Source of the DNA: Bryobacterales bacterium KBS 96
Lineage (GTDB): Bacteria > Acidobacteriota > Terriglobia > Bryobacterales > Bryobacteraceae
Reading direction: 5' to 3'
DNA length: 64,000 nucleotides
Assembly: GCA_000381625.1 (NCBI GenBank)
Contig: KB906767.1
Coordinates: forward strand, 128,729 to 192,728
A program made the position numbers and the translations under genes. Every line of letters begins with the position of its first letter. The stretch's first letter is position 1. Shown here in pieces: positions 119 to 12,043 of the stretch. The notes under the pieces were generated by a model. That model was not told where the DNA came from, did no database searches, and saw only the letters and a program-made list of their open reading frames with translations.

Positions 119-1264
119 CTAATTCGGCATCCGAGGCTGTTGTCGAGGATTTGTAGAATCGATTTTGTGATCGTCCGACAGTTTTCGGGTGGCTTTGTCC
201 TTACGCATTTGCCACTCCTCCATCCATTTCCGGTAGTGCTTGCGCACGACGTTGACGCTATCGCCCAGCAGATCCGCCACTACCTCAATTGGCTCGCCTT
301 TCGCGAGCAGCTCGCTCGCAAAGGTATGACGGAACCGATGCGGATAGGCCCCCTTTACGCCGGATCTCGCAAAGACTGACCAAAGCAACCGCTCGGCGCC
401 TTTGACGAGACTGCGCAGATTGCCTTGACCGGCGAAGTACATCTTTGATTCCCTCGCGGCCGCTTTCGGATGCGGGAGGTTTTCGAGCGCCTGTAGGACA
501 ATCGTCGGCACTTCGATCCTCAGCAGCACATTGTTTTTGATGGCGCGCTTGACGATGTAGTTGCCTTGGATGTGATCGCGCGACAGCGTAACTACATCGG
601 AGATTCTCATGCCGGTGAAGCGCAGCAGCAAGACCATTGCGCGGGCCCTGAGGCGCTCATAACTGCACTTACCTACGCCATCACAAGCGGAGATGATTTT
701 CGCCACCTCCTGCCGCGTGTAGGGCACGACCTCCTCGCCTTCCTCGATCTCCGGCAACTCGATTTCGAGCGCCGGATTATCCTCGCACCACTTGCGCGCC
801 AACGCGAATTTGAAGAGCGAGCGCAACTGCTCGACGGTCTTATACCAGCCGGGCGTGGGCTTACGATGCAATTGCACGAAAGGATCGAGGGTTTCGACTG
901 TTACGGACGGAAGAGATTTAAGGCCGCGCCCTTCGCAGTAAGTCTCAAACGTCTTCAGGTTGCGCCTGTATTTGCGCAGAGTCTCGGAGGAGCGATTCGC
1001 CTTGTGATCGATAAACGCCCGGATCGCCTCGCTGACAGACTTCTTGGCGGCTGGCGCTGGCTGCTTCTCGGCGTTAATCTCGCCCAATTTCTTCAGGGCT
1101 TTCGCAAGATCGCGCATCCCCAGCGAATAGTAAGTGACCTTGCCGCTCTCGCATCCATAGACCCAAAGGGGGCATGGCCGTTTGCCGCGGCATTTCAGGA
1201 AATTCGGTCCTTTCTCGCGGTCGGGGCATTTCTTACCGTGGCGGCGCTGGATAGTCAGATCCAT
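119..1264 (-). CDS. int: Phage tyrosine recombinase (integrase)
   Basis: A 381-aa site-specific recombinase that would integrate and excise the prophage at the flanking 95-bp repeats. A SAM-like core-binding domain lies around residues 75-160. The catalytic domain shows Arg220 in TGMRISD, the HRFRH box near 309-313 and the LGDS...HY segment with the nucleophile Tyr near 344. A Cys-rich stretch at residues 13-38 (CPDRE, CRGKRPC, GCES) suggests an N-terminal zinc-binding arm-type DNA-binding module. It is the last gene of the leftward early block, lies against attL and is followed by the small excisionase-like gene, the usual integration cassette. Confidence 0.95.
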   Translation of the reverse strand: MDLTIQRRHGKKCPDREKGPNFLKCRGKRPCPLWVYGCESGKVTYYSLGMRDLAKALKKLGEINAEKQPAPAAKKSVSEAIRAFIDHKANRSSETLRKYRRNLKTFETYCEGRGLKSLPSVTVETLDPFVQLHRKPTPGWYKTVEQLRSLFKFALARKWCEDNPALEIELPEIEEGEEVVPYTRQEVAKIISACDGVGKCSYERLRARAMVLLLRFTGMRISDVVTLSRDHIQGNYIVKRAIKNNVLLRIEVPTIVLQALENLPHPKAAARESKMYFAGQGNLRSLVKGAERLLWSVFARSGVKGAYPHRFRHTFASELLAKGEPIEVVADLLGDSVNVVRKHYRKWMEEWQMRKDKATRKLSDDHKIDSTNPRQQPRMPN

Positions 1265-3843: not shown

Positions 3844-4646
3844 GCGGAGAGTTCCTTACACGCCGGCAAATAGCACCGTGCGATATGCTGCGCGAGCGGA
3901 AACGGGATTTTGGCTATCTGGGCGGATGCGGCTTTACGTGCAGAATCATTTTTTCCAGCCCGGGCCGCTACCCAGGGAGGATTAAACGGACGTTCTATAC
4001 CGGCACGCTTTACAGAGGCGGACTGGAACGATCGTCCGGTCCCATCGAATCTGAACGCCGGAACCTTGTGGGCGTTAAACGCCTTCGGCATTAGGGCCGG
4101 TACATCTCCCCAGAGGTAGTAGCTGCCGTAATTCCACTGAGCGCGGCCCACCCATGGTTGAGCGCCGCGAACGTTCTCTACGATTAGCGGGATGTCCCTG
4201 TAAATCATCCCCTTCGAGTCGCAATATGCGCACTTTGGCGCGCTCATCATTCCATCGATGTACCCGCGCGAACATCGCAAGCATTCTCGACCGGTAGCCA
4301 TAATCGCTTCGCTCTGAATGCGAAAACACGCATCAAAAAGCGCAGTTAATTCGCGCTGCCGCGCCGGATCTTCCATGTACCATGCGGCCTTCTTCTTCAC
4401 GCGTTTCCATGGCATAGCCATGTAGCTGTATTCCTGGCACGGCGGACTCGCCACGATCAGCGCAGCATCGCGAAACTGCGAGCCGTGCAGGGTGAGCACG
4501 TCCTGAATCACGAGATGGCCCGGATAGCCACCGGTTCCGTAGTCGTGACGCTCGATGTCGAAACCGATGACTTCGTAGCCTTCAGCTAGAAAACCTTCGG
4601 CCCAGCCGCCTAATCCGCAAAACAAATCGATGGCGAGTGGCTTCAC
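3840..4646 (-). CDS. DNA (cytosine-5) methyltransferase
   Basis: 268 aa from a GTG at 4646 that overlaps the upstream stop. AdoMet-binding motif I is DLFCGLGGW (residues 7-15), the catalytic motif IV is SPPCQ with Cys70, and motif VI is VENVRG near 156-161. Between IV and VI is an insert with CLRCSRGYID...PKCAYC, a probable structural zinc site not found in most C5 enzymes. The target-recognition region is short. No cognate restriction enzyme lies beside it, so it probably protects phage DNA from host restriction. Confidence 0.88.
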   Translation of the reverse strand: MKPLAIDLFCGLGGWAEGFLAEGYEVIGFDIERHDYGTGGYPGHLVIQDVLTLHGSQFRDAALIVASPPCQEYSYMAMPWKRVKKKAAWYMEDPARQRELTALFDACFRIQSEAIMATGRECLRCSRGYIDGMMSAPKCAYCDSKGMIYRDIPLIVENVRGAQPWVGRAQWNYGSYYLWGDVPALMPKAFNAHKVPAFRFDGTGRSFQSASVKRAGIERPFNPPWVAARAGKNDSARKAASAQIAKIPFPLAQHIARCYLPACKELSA

Positions 4647-5479
4647 GCCGTCATCCCTTTCGCGCCTCTCTGGCACTCGCACGACACGTACAATTCGCCC
4701 TCCGGCAGCTCAACCCAGCCCGGTTTCTCGGTGACTCCCGGCCTCAAAACTCGCCCCGAATCTTGGCAGATCAGGCATGCCGGCTGGTGATATTCCCGCG
4801 ATTTCGGCGCGCCGTTTTTCAGAAATGCGGGTACGGTTTGCAGCCAAAGGCCCGGCGATTTCTGCACTCGGCGCTTGTACGTGGCTCGCACAGCGGCCGC
4901 AATCTCGGCATCGTCGGCAGTCGATTTCGCCCGCAAGGCCTCGAGCACGATGCGTTCGGCAATGATTTCATCGGCGTCCGGGAATGGCTCACGGACTGCG
5001 GCCAGCGTTTCGGGCCAGTTCCCCCCTTGACCCCCTTCCGGGGCAGATGCAGAAACAGAATCAGAAACAGACGCAGAAACAGATACAGAGGAGAAACCGT
5101 TGCGCGAAACGCTCACGTCCTGTTTCTCGAAACGCTCATCTGACTGTTTCGTGGAACGCTCTCGGAACCGTTTCACGCGTTCCGTTGACAGGTCGGTTTG
5201 GTATTGCCGCTTATCCCAACCATGGGGCACGAAACTGCTTTCGGACCGTTCCAAAAATTTCGCATCTTCGAGCTTTGAGAGCTGATCGATAACCTGCTGA
5301 TCATTCATCCGGAGCACCCATGCGATCTCGTCGACAGGCGGAAGCACCCCGCTATTGCCGCCAGCCAGGCAAAGGCAATTGATCCAAAATTTGAAAAGCG
5401 CCGGCTGCAACCGCTGGGCCTTCGGATCGTGCGGGACTTCCGTATAAAGACGAATCCAGGATCGTTTCACCAGGTTCAA
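4643..5479 (-). CDS. Phage replication initiator-like protein
   Basis: 278 aa. The N-terminal 95 residues (WIRLYTEVPHDPKAQRLQP...GVLPPVDEIAWVLRMNDQQVIDQLSKLEDAKFLE) form a winged helix-turn-helix like those of phage replisome organisers. The middle (residues 100-150) is a low-complexity Ser/Val linker whose DNA carries 12-bp and 24-bp tandem repeats. The C-terminus has CLICQDSGRV...YVSCECQRG, a probable zinc site. A repeat cluster inside the initiator gene mirrors phage lambda gene O, which contains its own origin. The VRR-NUC gene follows with a 4-bp overlap. Confidence 0.65.
   Translation of the reverse strand: MNLVKRSWIRLYTEVPHDPKAQRLQPALFKFWINCLCLAGGNSGVLPPVDEIAWVLRMNDQQVIDQLSKLEDAKFLERSESSFVPHGWDKRQYQTDLSTERVKRFRERSTKQSDERFEKQDVSVSRNGFSSVSVSASVSDSVSASAPEGGQGGNWPETLAAVREPFPDADEIIAERIVLEALRAKSTADDAEIAAAVRATYKRRVQKSPGLWLQTVPAFLKNGAPKSREYHQPACLICQDSGRVLRPGVTEKPGWVELPEGELYVSCECQRGAKGMTA
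5045..5190. repeat. Iteron-like repeats, candidate replication origin
   Basis: Two repeat families lie inside the initiator gene. Three 12-bp copies of GCAGAAACAGAN run from 5049 to 5084. Then near-palindromes of the form GTTTCnnGAAACGCTC recur every 24 bp, beginning at 5122, 5146 and 5170, with a weaker copy at 5099. Origins built of iterons within the initiator reading frame are known from lambdoid phages. That these bind the encoded protein is inference. Confidence 0.5.
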
Positions 5480-6364: not shown

Positions 6365-7029
6365 AGTGTCTTCATCTGCCTCGCGCTAGCCACTGCAGGC
6401 GTCCGGCTTGCCTTCATCGCGGCAACCGCCGTGGCGCTCGGATGCACGCACGGAATCACTTCGCCGTCTTCGTTCACGTGCGTCAAGCCGTTTTCGTCGC
6501 CGTACGGCATATCCGCGTCGCAGTGCGGGCACGCGAACAGCGGATCCTGCTTCTCGTCTTTCAGCACGGCCATCTCAACCCGCGTCCCCCCCTCGAATAG
6601 CTCGCCCTGGCGCGAGCGGACCGCCATCTCGAACGTGTCTTTCTTTACCGCGAAGAGAAACGCCAGCGCCTCCTGACTCTGCCCGGCCGGGATGTGCGCC
6701 CGCATCGTGATCTCAAATTGCGCGTCCTCGGTGCGGCTCAAGCGTAATTTGTGGATGATGTCGGGATAGTAAGTCGAGGACTGGCCCAAGTCCGTCGCCA
6801 TCGGCAGATGCAAGGTTACGTTTTGTAACTCGATGCTCAGCGGGATATTGTTACCGAGTCCCTCTCGAACGACCGTCCCGTTGAGGAGATAGTCAACGCC
6901 GAGTATCTCCGCGTGTTCGCGTGTCATGGGCGCAGAAAGCACCATCACACCCTTGATGTCATCACTCGTTGTCAGGTCGAGACCTTCGATGCGAGCGTCC
7001 TTAAATGCCAACAATCGTCGTAACTCCAC
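6361..7029 (-). CDS. Hypothetical phage protein downstream of the guide array
   Basis: 222 aa from a GTG at 7029, preceded by AAAGGA. An alpha/beta N-terminal region (ARIEGLDLTTSDDIKGVMVLSAP) is followed by a putative zinc knuckle (ACPHCDADM, with later CVHP). It is the first leftward gene after the 18-bp-periodic array, so array and gene are probably on one transcript. No family recognised. Confidence 0.6.
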   Translation of the reverse strand: MELRRLLAFKDARIEGLDLTTSDDIKGVMVLSAPMTREHAEILGVDYLLNGTVVREGLGNNIPLSIELQNVTLHLPMATDLGQSSTYYPDIIHKLRLSRTEDAQFEITMRAHIPAGQSQEALAFLFAVKKDTFEMAVRSRQGELFEGGTRVEMAVLKDEKQDPLFACPHCDADMPYGDENGLTHVNEDGEVIPCVHPSATAVAAMKASRTPAVASARQMKTL

Positions 7030-7065
7030 TTAGTCGTCCTTTCCGTTCAGTTTCCGTTCTTTCCC

Positions 7066-7291
7066 TGGGGCGCTCCAAGCCACTGGTTCTCTCCGGGCAA
7101 ATGGCTCGCTCTTGTAAGTTGGTTCCCTCACCTGGAGTGGCTCGCTCCTGTGTCCTGGTTCTTTCTAATGTCCTGGCTCGCTCTCATTCTTTGGGTCACT
7201 CTGAAACCTTGGCTCGCTCGAATCGAATGGTTCTCTCTGCTTTTATGGCTCGCTCTTCAAGCATGGTCCTCTCCCAACGCATGGCTAAACC
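7066..7291 (-). repeat. TIGR-type tandem interspaced guide array
   Basis: Twelve full units of exactly 18 bp start at 7066, 7084, 7102 and so on to 7264, plus a degenerate thirteenth at 7282. Written on the + strand, each is a 10-bp half-repeat plus 8 variable bases. Two half-repeats alternate: TGGCTCGCTC (identical at 7102, 7138, 7174, 7210 and 7246; degenerate at 7066) and TGGTTCTCTC (7084 and 7228 exact; others with 1-2 changes). The true period is therefore 36 bp with two spacers per period. Spacers after the first type: CAAGCCAC, TTGTAAGT, CTGTGTCC, TCATTCTT, GAATCGAA, TTCAAGCA; after the second: CGGGCAAA, ACCTGGAG, TAATGTCC, TGAAACCT, TGCTTTTA, CCAACGCA. A 36-nt dual-spacer unit beside a Nop/IS110-like gene is the described TIGR arrangement. 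Transcription leftward with that gene is inferred. Confidence 0.85.
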
Positions 7292-8091
7292 TTGTGGGCG
7301 TGGCCCAAAATCGCTATCGGATACGGCAGTGGCGGCTTCTCGCCGAAGTGATGCTCATACCAAAACTCGTGTAGATGACTCAAAAACAATTTCACGGCAT
7401 AGCGCTTCGCTCTCGCGTGGATATGGCCCGGCGGCAGCTTGCCCGATGAGTAACTCTTATAGGCTTCGGTTTCCTTTCCGATGCGCTTCTTAGTGATGGC
7501 CTCCGATGCTTGCGCGGCGTATTCGCCAGCCTCATTCTTCGCCTGCTCGTACCCCTTCCTCGCGAGATAGATCTTGCCGTAAACGTCATTCGGATTCCCC
7601 GAGACCTTCACGAACGATTCGCCGATTTTCCAGCAGAGTGTTTTGAGTGAGCCGTTGTGCGGGCGCTTCTGTCCTTTCCCCCAACTGAGAGTCGGATCTA
7701 AACCGGCAAAGCGCCAGATATGGCCCACGGTCGGGGCCTTCTCAATATCGATGTGCGCGAGCAGGCCCGCCGCGATTACTGGACCGATGCCCGTAATCGC
7801 CTTAAGCCACTTGCCTACTGGATGCTCGTCCGTCCAGCGATCAAGCGCACGCTTAACCTGCTGCTCTAGGACGTCATTTTGACTTCCGAGCCATACGAGA
7901 ACATCATGTGGCTCTCCGGACTCATTCAGTGCTCGCGTCTGATTGCCCGCCATGATGCGGTTGTGCTGCATCTGGTAATAGGCGTCTACGAGGAACCGTG
8001 CCTCGTCTTTCGAGAGTGAGCCGGAAGACTTCGCGATGTCCCGGCTGAGTCTCGCGACCGAATCAAGCGATATATTTCCCGCTGCTGCCAT
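7285..8091 (-). CDS. Tas-like protein (Nop/IS110 C-terminal fold), TasA type
   Basis: 268 aa; its TAG stop lies inside the first array unit. Residues 10-95 are helical and coiled-coil-like. Residues 96-135 (AITGIGPVIAAGLLAHI, then HIWRFAGLDP) carry the helix-hairpin-helix signature shared by the IS110/IS116/IS902 transposase C-terminal domain and the Nop domain of box C/D proteins. A basic helical region follows, then HARAKRYAVKLFLSHLHEFW at 225-244. The N-terminal DEDD/RuvC domain of IS110 enzymes is absent and there is no HNH motif. In TIGR-Tas systems such a protein binds 36-nt guide RNAs and targets DNA through two short spacers. Without a nuclease domain it could act as an RNA-guided DNA binder, for example a repressor. 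An automatic annotation would probably read transposase. Confidence 0.8.
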   Translation of the reverse strand: MAAAGNISLDSVARLSRDIAKSSGSLSKDEARFLVDAYYQMQHNRIMAGNQTRALNESGEPHDVLVWLGSQNDVLEQQVKRALDRWTDEHPVGKWLKAITGIGPVIAAGLLAHIDIEKAPTVGHIWRFAGLDPTLSWGKGQKRPHNGSLKTLCWKIGESFVKVSGNPNDVYGKIYLARKGYEQAKNEAGEYAAQASEAITKKRIGKETEAYKSYSSGKLPPGHIHARAKRYAVKLFLSHLHEFWYEHHFGEKPPLPYPIAILGHAHKV

Positions 8092-11798: not shown

Positions 11799-12043
11799 TA
11801 CGCGGCCCCGCCTGCGGCTCGCGCGACGAGCATCAAATCCGCGATCAAGTACGCGTCCTTAACGAGCTGCTCGCGGCGATAGTGAGATTCGTACGCGTCC
11901 TTAACGAGCTGCTCGCGGCGATAGTGAGATTCGCCGGCAAGCGGACCCTGTAGAGCCGCCATTGCAAGCTGATCGCGTAGCGTCACCTTCTCCGCCGGTG
12001 GTTTTGGCGTCGTGGCTCTTGCGCGTTTCGGCTTCTCGGTCAC
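11798..12043 (-). CDS. Small phage protein with internal tandem duplication
   Basis: 81 aa from a GTG at 12043. A basic Pro-rich start is followed by ESHYRREQLVKDAY repeated twice in tandem. In DNA the repeat is a perfect 42-bp tandem duplication (11849-11890 and 11891-11932) that keeps the frame. Identity of the copies indicates a recent event. Function unknown. Confidence 0.6.
   Translation of the reverse strand: MTEKPKRARATTPKPPAEKVTLRDQLAMAALQGPLAGESHYRREQLVKDAYESHYRREQLVKDAYLIADLMLVARAAGGAA

Follow-up and report, generated by a model that had tools for sequence, protein, structure and literature searches.

A TIGR-TasA system in an acidobacterial prophage and a candidate natural target in a co-resident satellite-like element

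Tandem interspaced guide RNA (TIGR) arrays are built of two distinct, alternating repeats of 8-12 nucleotides (nt) and of spacers of about 9 nt, with known exceptions, the array ending in truncated edge repeats on both sides (PMC12045711). RNA processing and DNA targeting by tandem spacers are established for other members of the class, while natural targets, biological role and the evolution of the arrays are given as unknown in the discovery paper (PMC12045711). One described member is the TIGR-TasA system FpTIGR of Flavonifractor plautii (Faure et al., 2025; PMC12045711). Here we present a system of this type from Bryobacterales bacterium KBS 96, encoded in a 64,000-nt stretch of contig KB906767.1 (the window, whose numbering is used below), where the array at 7066-7291, on the minus strand like the flanking gene tasA, is carried by a temperate tailed phage residing as a prophage in this soil acidobacterium. 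It shares with FpTIGR the solo Nop protein, the dual alternating repeats, the truncated edges at both ends and the 36-nt unit (PMC12045711), but has spacers of 8 nt, not 9 nt, a total of 16 nt as in SpTIGR (PMC12045711), and it comprises six units and comes with a candidate natural target. The repeats start with GA and end with CCA, compared to UG...CCA in TasR arrays. The type of system is thus already known, and the new part is the candidate natural target, seen in one host. We consider it probable that this TIGR-TasA targets, and silences, the early operon of a satellite-like element residing in the same genome. Nearly as probable, in our judgment, is the more specific proposal that a nuclease-free TasA, guided by spacers of 8+8 nt in tandem, acts as a silencer on the regulator/replication operon in a satellite-like element with which the phage shares a Rep domain, and that this is the first natural TIGR target.

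The anatomy of the array is regular. The sequence TGGCTCGCTC stands unchanged at 7102, 7138, 7174, 7210 and 7246 and represents the edge (processing) repeat, and its partner TGGTTCTCTC, at 7084, 7120, 7156, 7192, 7228 and 7264, represents the loop repeat, four of whose six copies differ (TTCCCTC, TTCTTTC, GTCACTC, TCCTCTC), all exactly as listed in an initial annotation of this DNA. All twelve spacer gaps measure 8 nt, hence the period of 36. Read on the minus strand, a truncated edge, AGCCA, is followed by six successions of spacer A, loop, spacer B and edge, the final edge being cut to GAGCG. The end units (7066, TGGGGCGCTC, and 7282, TGGCTAAACC), which the initial annotation had explained as the degenerate ends of an old array, are instead these truncated edge repeats, a described trait of TIGR arrays (PMC12045711). 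As AGCCA overlaps the tasA stop codon (TAG, 7285-7287), the array would form the 3' end of the tasA transcript; a simple consensus scan recognized no Rho-independent terminator 3' of the array, where one is expected in TIGR systems. With a lag-36 score of 48.6 (maximum of 14.6 in 50 shuffles) and a chain score of 187 (null maximum of 31, 39 shuffled loci), an array by chance is excluded. The parts of the array are as follows, the boundaries of the tigRNAs being deduced from the pairing of edge halves (see below) together with the published cleavage in mid-edge during TIGR processing (PMC12045711).

7066-7291, minus strand: TIGR array of six tigRNA units of 36 nt, with repeats of 10 nt and spacers of 8 nt
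7282-7286, minus strand: 5' truncated edge repeat AGCCA, by sequence the 3' half of the edge repeat
7264-7273 (also 7228-7237, 7192-7201, 7156-7165, 7120-7129, 7084-7093), minus strand: loop repeat, consensus GAGAGAACCA, four of six copies varying
7246-7255 (also 7210-7219, 7174-7183, 7138-7147, 7102-7111), minus strand: edge repeat GAGCGAGCCA, invariant in five copies
7071-7075, minus strand: 3' truncated edge repeat GAGCG, by sequence the 5' half of the edge repeat
7251-7286, minus strand: putative tigRNA1, spacer A TGCGTTGG, spacer B TGCTTGAA
7215-7250, minus strand: putative tigRNA2, spacer A TAAAAGCA, spacer B TTCGATTC; 16/16 match to TAAAAGCAGAATCGAA, G000:C1:6329962-6329977 (G000 is the host's own genome)
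7179-7214, minus strand: putative tigRNA3, spacer A AGGTTTCA, spacer B AAGAATGA
7143-7178, minus strand: putative tigRNA4, spacer A GGACATTA, spacer B GGACACAG
7107-7142, minus strand: putative tigRNA5, spacer A CTCCAGGT, spacer B ACTTACAA; 14/16 match in rep of the co-resident element
7071-7106, minus strand: putative tigRNA6, spacer A TTTGCCCG, spacer B GTGGCTTG; 13/16 match in rep of the co-resident element

Given the published 8-nt 3' overhang, a target is read as spacer A followed by the reverse complement of spacer B; gaps of 0-2 bp between the target halves are, as published, tolerated by TasR. Read this way, tigRNA2 has a single perfect, gapless match in the host's own genome, falling in codons 9-14 of a gene for an 86-aa helix-turn-helix (HTH) protein (PHROG 'excisionase and transcriptional regulator'). 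In the adjacent rep gene, tigRNA5 has a gapless match at 6329052, with 8/8 in spacer B and 6/8 in spacer A, and tigRNA6 another gapless one at 6329237, both not more than 930 bp from the tigRNA2 site, so that all three sites lie in one HTH-replication operon. Of the five mismatches that tigRNA5 and tigRNA6 have between them, three are synonymous changes at third codon positions, as though these two guides were matched to a relative of this rep gene. A 13/16 match of tigRNA3 at 6332330 was dropped, as it lies outside the element delimited by attachment (att) repeats.

The element in question measures 10.2 kb (G000:C1:6321951-6332130, loci L093 and L094), is integrated at tRNA-Glu and is bounded by a 26-nt repeat of the 3' end of this tRNA gene (6321951 and 6332104). 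It encodes a tyrosine integrase, an HTH repressor, two HTH excisionase-like proteins, Rep, an HK97 capsid protein, a prohead protease and a cold-shock-type protein; no portal or terminase was seen in it, in a search short of exhaustive. It looks like a capsid-bearing satellite or a short prophage, a decayed prophage being possible as well. A capsid-forming phage-inducible chromosomal island or satellite would be a small integrated element that has an integrase, regulators, a replication gene and capsid genes of its own but lacks a full virion set, and the element may be of this kind. Another att copy, of 27 nt, lies at 6319361 and may mark a second remnant. The prophage has a replication gene of its own:

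4643-5479, minus strand: prophage replication-initiation gene, C-terminal domain 58% identical over 124 residues to the Rep of the element

The shared C-terminal domain (prophage, 4643-5479; element, 6328960-6329733) occurs in no other locus of 237 genomes of the family, and no relatives of the element Rep were detected in the viral contigs searched. The prophage's own rep is spared by the guides, with 4-5 mismatches at best. With a replication module in common and a single host to live in, a phage and a small capsid-bearing element are likely to be natural rivals.

How easily could such matches arise by chance? A perfect gapless match in the own genome is expected 0.003 times per tigRNA and 0.02 times for six (0.06 with gaps of 0-2). 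Genome-wide counts of near matches cover tigRNA5 only: the 6.69 Mb contain three sites at which it has no more than two mismatches, and one of these is 910 bp away from the site of tigRNA2. When every spacer A is combined with every spacer B (6 x 6) on the 1.29-kb operon, the true pairs 2, 5 and 6 give 0, 2 and 3 mismatches, respectively, and the only other match, A2 with B1, has 3 mismatches; none of the wrong spacer orders yields anything beyond a single 3-mismatch match. As a control, 965 tigRNAs of other phages were drawn in sets of six (200,000 draws). On the element, the expectation per six for 0, 1, 2 and 3 mismatches is 0, 0, 0.019 and 0.47, compared to the observed 1, 0, 1 and 1. At least two matches with two or fewer mismatches on the element occur with a probability of 1.3e-4, and a perfect match occurs in none of the 200,000 draws. 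As the operon was noticed via the perfect match, the fair figure is that of the additional matches given that one, and sets of six with at least two operon matches at three or fewer mismatches make up 0.12% of draws. A candidate natural target in the co-resident element is thus well supported by these matches, in one host, and this one genome provides a named guide-target pair in a second mobile element.

As to the mode of action, the array in the tasA transcript would be cut in mid-edge into six 36-nt tigRNAs. Each of these would fold on a dimer of TasA, where the 8-nt spacers A and B would be presented by the two edge halves and the loop. The target would be a contiguous site of 16 bp (A, then the reverse complement of B), with spacer A pairing to one strand and spacer B to the opposite one. 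As TasA has no nuclease, it would hold and bend the DNA. In the 10.2-kb tRNA-Glu element this would block transcription or replication at the early operon, which contains the HTH regulator and the replication gene, and the phage would in this manner silence a competing or parasitic element. Expression at this locus, binding at the site and silencing are what we infer from the anatomy and the matches. If true, TasA is an RNA-guided repressor and a phage weapon against rival elements or satellites. Nuclease-free CRISPR (clustered regularly interspaced short palindromic repeats) effectors borne by mobile elements (type IV, V-M; PMC12045711) are likewise expected to bind and silence another element, but their protein is unrelated, and the system described here has two split spacers and no adaptation genes.

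The assignment to the TasA subtype is firm, by sequence, fold and array anatomy. The protein and the integrase of the carrier phage are:

7285-8091, minus strand: tasA, a 268-aa solo Nop-domain protein, TIGR-associated, without a nuclease domain
119-1264, minus strand: tyrosine integrase of the prophage (PHROG integrase, E = 6e-38)

In Pfam, TasA matches part of the IS110-type C-terminal domain and nothing else. Among solved structures, the nearest by phmmer are TasR (9mty, E = 2e-13) and TasH (21kl, E = 3e-10), and an AlphaFold2 model (predicted local distance difference test score of 89, from an alignment of 27 sequences) retrieves by Foldseek TasH (9w04, E = 5e-8) as the best and then TasR (9mty, E = 2e-7). 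In VIA-align the model superposes on TasH with Z of 19.1 (root-mean-square deviation [rmsd] of 3.1, 211 residues), on TasR with Z of 17.4 (rmsd of 2.6, 188 residues) and on IS110-type recombinases with Z of 13. The TIGR-TasR and TIGR-TasH systems (9mty, 21kl, 9w04) thus share with this one the Nop fold (Z of 17-19), the RNA architecture and the tandem-spacer rule, but TasA lacks their RuvC or HNH domain: the alignment to the Nop part of TasH and TasR takes up residues 25-268, and the chain is too short for a nuclease domain of either kind, which places the protein in the TasA subtype. The IS110-family recombinases with bridge RNA (IS621, ISCro4) have the same Nop-like RNA-binding domain and a two-part guide, but TasA aligns only from IS621 residue 125, with about 25 residues preceding, so that the N-terminal DEDD catalytic domain is absent, and its RNA comes from an array, not from a single bridge RNA.

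A scan of IMG/VR produced 80 viral loci with tas relatives (L002 being the prophage studied here), of which 77, the own prophage included, possess arrays with a chain score above 100, nearly all beside tas. More relatives are found in Halomonas, Propionivibrio, Pyrinomonadaceae, Chloroflexi, Gemmatimonadetes and others, while a close relative is present in just 5 of the 257 genomes of the order, the own genome included. Two TasA loci (L060 and L077) show a variant geometry of the array, with a period of 34 bp and a loop repeat (GAACATCA) that seems to be shorter, at 8 nt.

These relatives bear on the two half-repeats, for which the initial annotation had proposed different rates of change and different functions, one a protein-bound or processing element and the other a loop. 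In the own array, 5 of 60 loop bases and 0 of 50 edge bases vary, a borderline result (one-sided Fisher p = 0.045), and a comparison of 43 arrays, all regular and distinct, finds the loop to be the more variable half in 32 and the edge in 8, with 3 ties (Wilcoxon p = 5e-4), bearing out the first proposal. Covariation, measured in 44 arrays as z against within-array permutation, speaks to the second. Base 3 of edge k+1 forms a Watson-Crick pair with base 8 of edge k in 89.6% of cases (z = 14.3), and base 4 does so with base 7 in 96.1% (z = 16.3), while pairing of consecutive edges in the reverse direction is weak (z = 2.8 and 2.9), and the same bases show no covariation within a single edge repeat (z = -1.2 and -2.4). 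Loop bases 3 and 8 pair inside their own loop (z = 6.6). The division into a processing half and a loop therefore stands, with edge halves pairing between repeats and the loop within itself, but the contrast of protein-bound versus loop does not, as both repeats are expected to be protein-bound according to the TasR structure (PMC12045711). The predicted guide begins with the 3' half of an edge repeat and ends with the 5' half of the edge repeat that follows, an architecture matching that known from the TasR structure (PMC12045711), and for TasA this tigRNA unit is obtained from sequence comparison alone, through the pairing of consecutive edge repeats. Thus the array shows the alternating repeats, the truncated edges and the 36-nt mid-edge unit with paired edge halves that characterize TIGR arrays.

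The related arrays also provide sequence evidence for evolution by whole tigRNA units. When related phages are compared family by family, gains and losses of spacers involve whole units, and point drift inside spacers is seen as well. Where spacer A is kept, spacer B across the loop is kept in 85% of cases, and where B is kept, the next A across the edge is kept in 43%, in counts from related phages that are not independent. Spacers A and B are thus inherited together as one unit, with breakpoints mostly at edge repeats. The earlier suggestion that the A and B 8-mers belong together is thus upheld, by this co-inheritance and by target matches that require the correct pairing. Whole units shared, dropped and gained, with spacer drift, can be followed in L006-L009 with L021, in L010, L012, L015 and L018, and in L035, L037, L039 and L041. 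In L225 (Propionivibrio) and L230, tigRNAs are duplicated inside one array, one duplicated pair differing by a single base of spacer A (GAAATAAC/GAAGTAAC) with identical B. The spacer ATGGGCGC is found in the tas-proximal tigRNA of both L226 and L228, from different hosts, and is spacer A in one array and spacer B in the other.

In an alternative, which we hold to be rather unlikely, the TIGR-TasA system is genuine but its matches to the element are coincidental, the true targets being elements absent from databases; in its favor are the restriction to one host and the chance level of broad paired searches. A number of observations weigh against the targeting of the element. The link rests on a single host and a single perfect match; the element offers no good target for tigRNAs 1, 3 and 4, and tigRNA6, mismatched at spacer B position 3, may not act on this copy. 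The spacer order is itself deduced from the published overhang, and one sentence of PMC12045711 puts the side of the cut differently from its 'C - 5 rule'. The search of paired spacers against shuffled pairs, as proposed in the initial annotation, succeeded in the other element of the host, through the perfect match, and gave chance levels in related phages, IMG/VR and genomes of the family. In related phages (about 900-1100 tigRNAs, about 0.9 Mb) paired matches were not above those of shuffled pairs (for A plus reverse complement of B at gap 0, 22 observed versus 17.3 +/- 3.9 in 60 shuffles). The six own tigRNAs gave five matches outside the own genome in 100-140 genomes of the family, and the reversed control also five. 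In IMG/VR, tigRNA2, tigRNA5 and tigRNA6 match 33, 14 and 13 stretches, respectively, none in a homologue of the targeted genes. In other TasA hosts (three metagenome-assembled genomes of the family, Halomonas, Propionivibrio, Pyrinomonadaceae and Chloroflexi; mostly drafts, integrase-adjacent regions only) there was no perfect match, and near matches were chance-like, such as a 15/16 match in an apparent chromosomal gene of G132 and three 14/16 matches in Propionivibrio. However, coincidence would have to account for a unique perfect match that falls in the early operon of another element, for two further matches in its vicinity with the correct A/B pairing, and for the Rep domain common to element and prophage.

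Two other explanations can be considered. A function of TIGR-TasA for the prophage that carries it, such as RNA-guided help to the integrase or regulation of the prophage's own genes, agrees with a role proposed for TasA (PMC12045711) and with the DNA bending expected, but the prophage window contains no paired match with one or no mismatch, and self-matches in the own phage flanks are at the chance level (18 versus 21.7 shuffled, at 2 mismatches), making this very improbable. Still more remote are readings of the array as CRISPR-like, as an unrelated set of repeats or as a repeat within a coding sequence. The 18-bp half-period does leave a plus-strand frame (7005-7493) open across the array, but the covariation of consecutive edges in phase with the unit refutes such readings, and the turnover of spacers as whole units and the adjacent, conserved tasA speak against them as well. 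A CRISPR array would have one repeat of 25-36 nt and spacers of similar size, and here there are two alternating 10-nt repeats and 8-nt spacers. Targeting of the early operon of the co-resident element by TIGR-TasA is thus the reading we favor. Elsewhere in the window, a coding region contains a perfect 42-bp tandem duplication (11849-11933).
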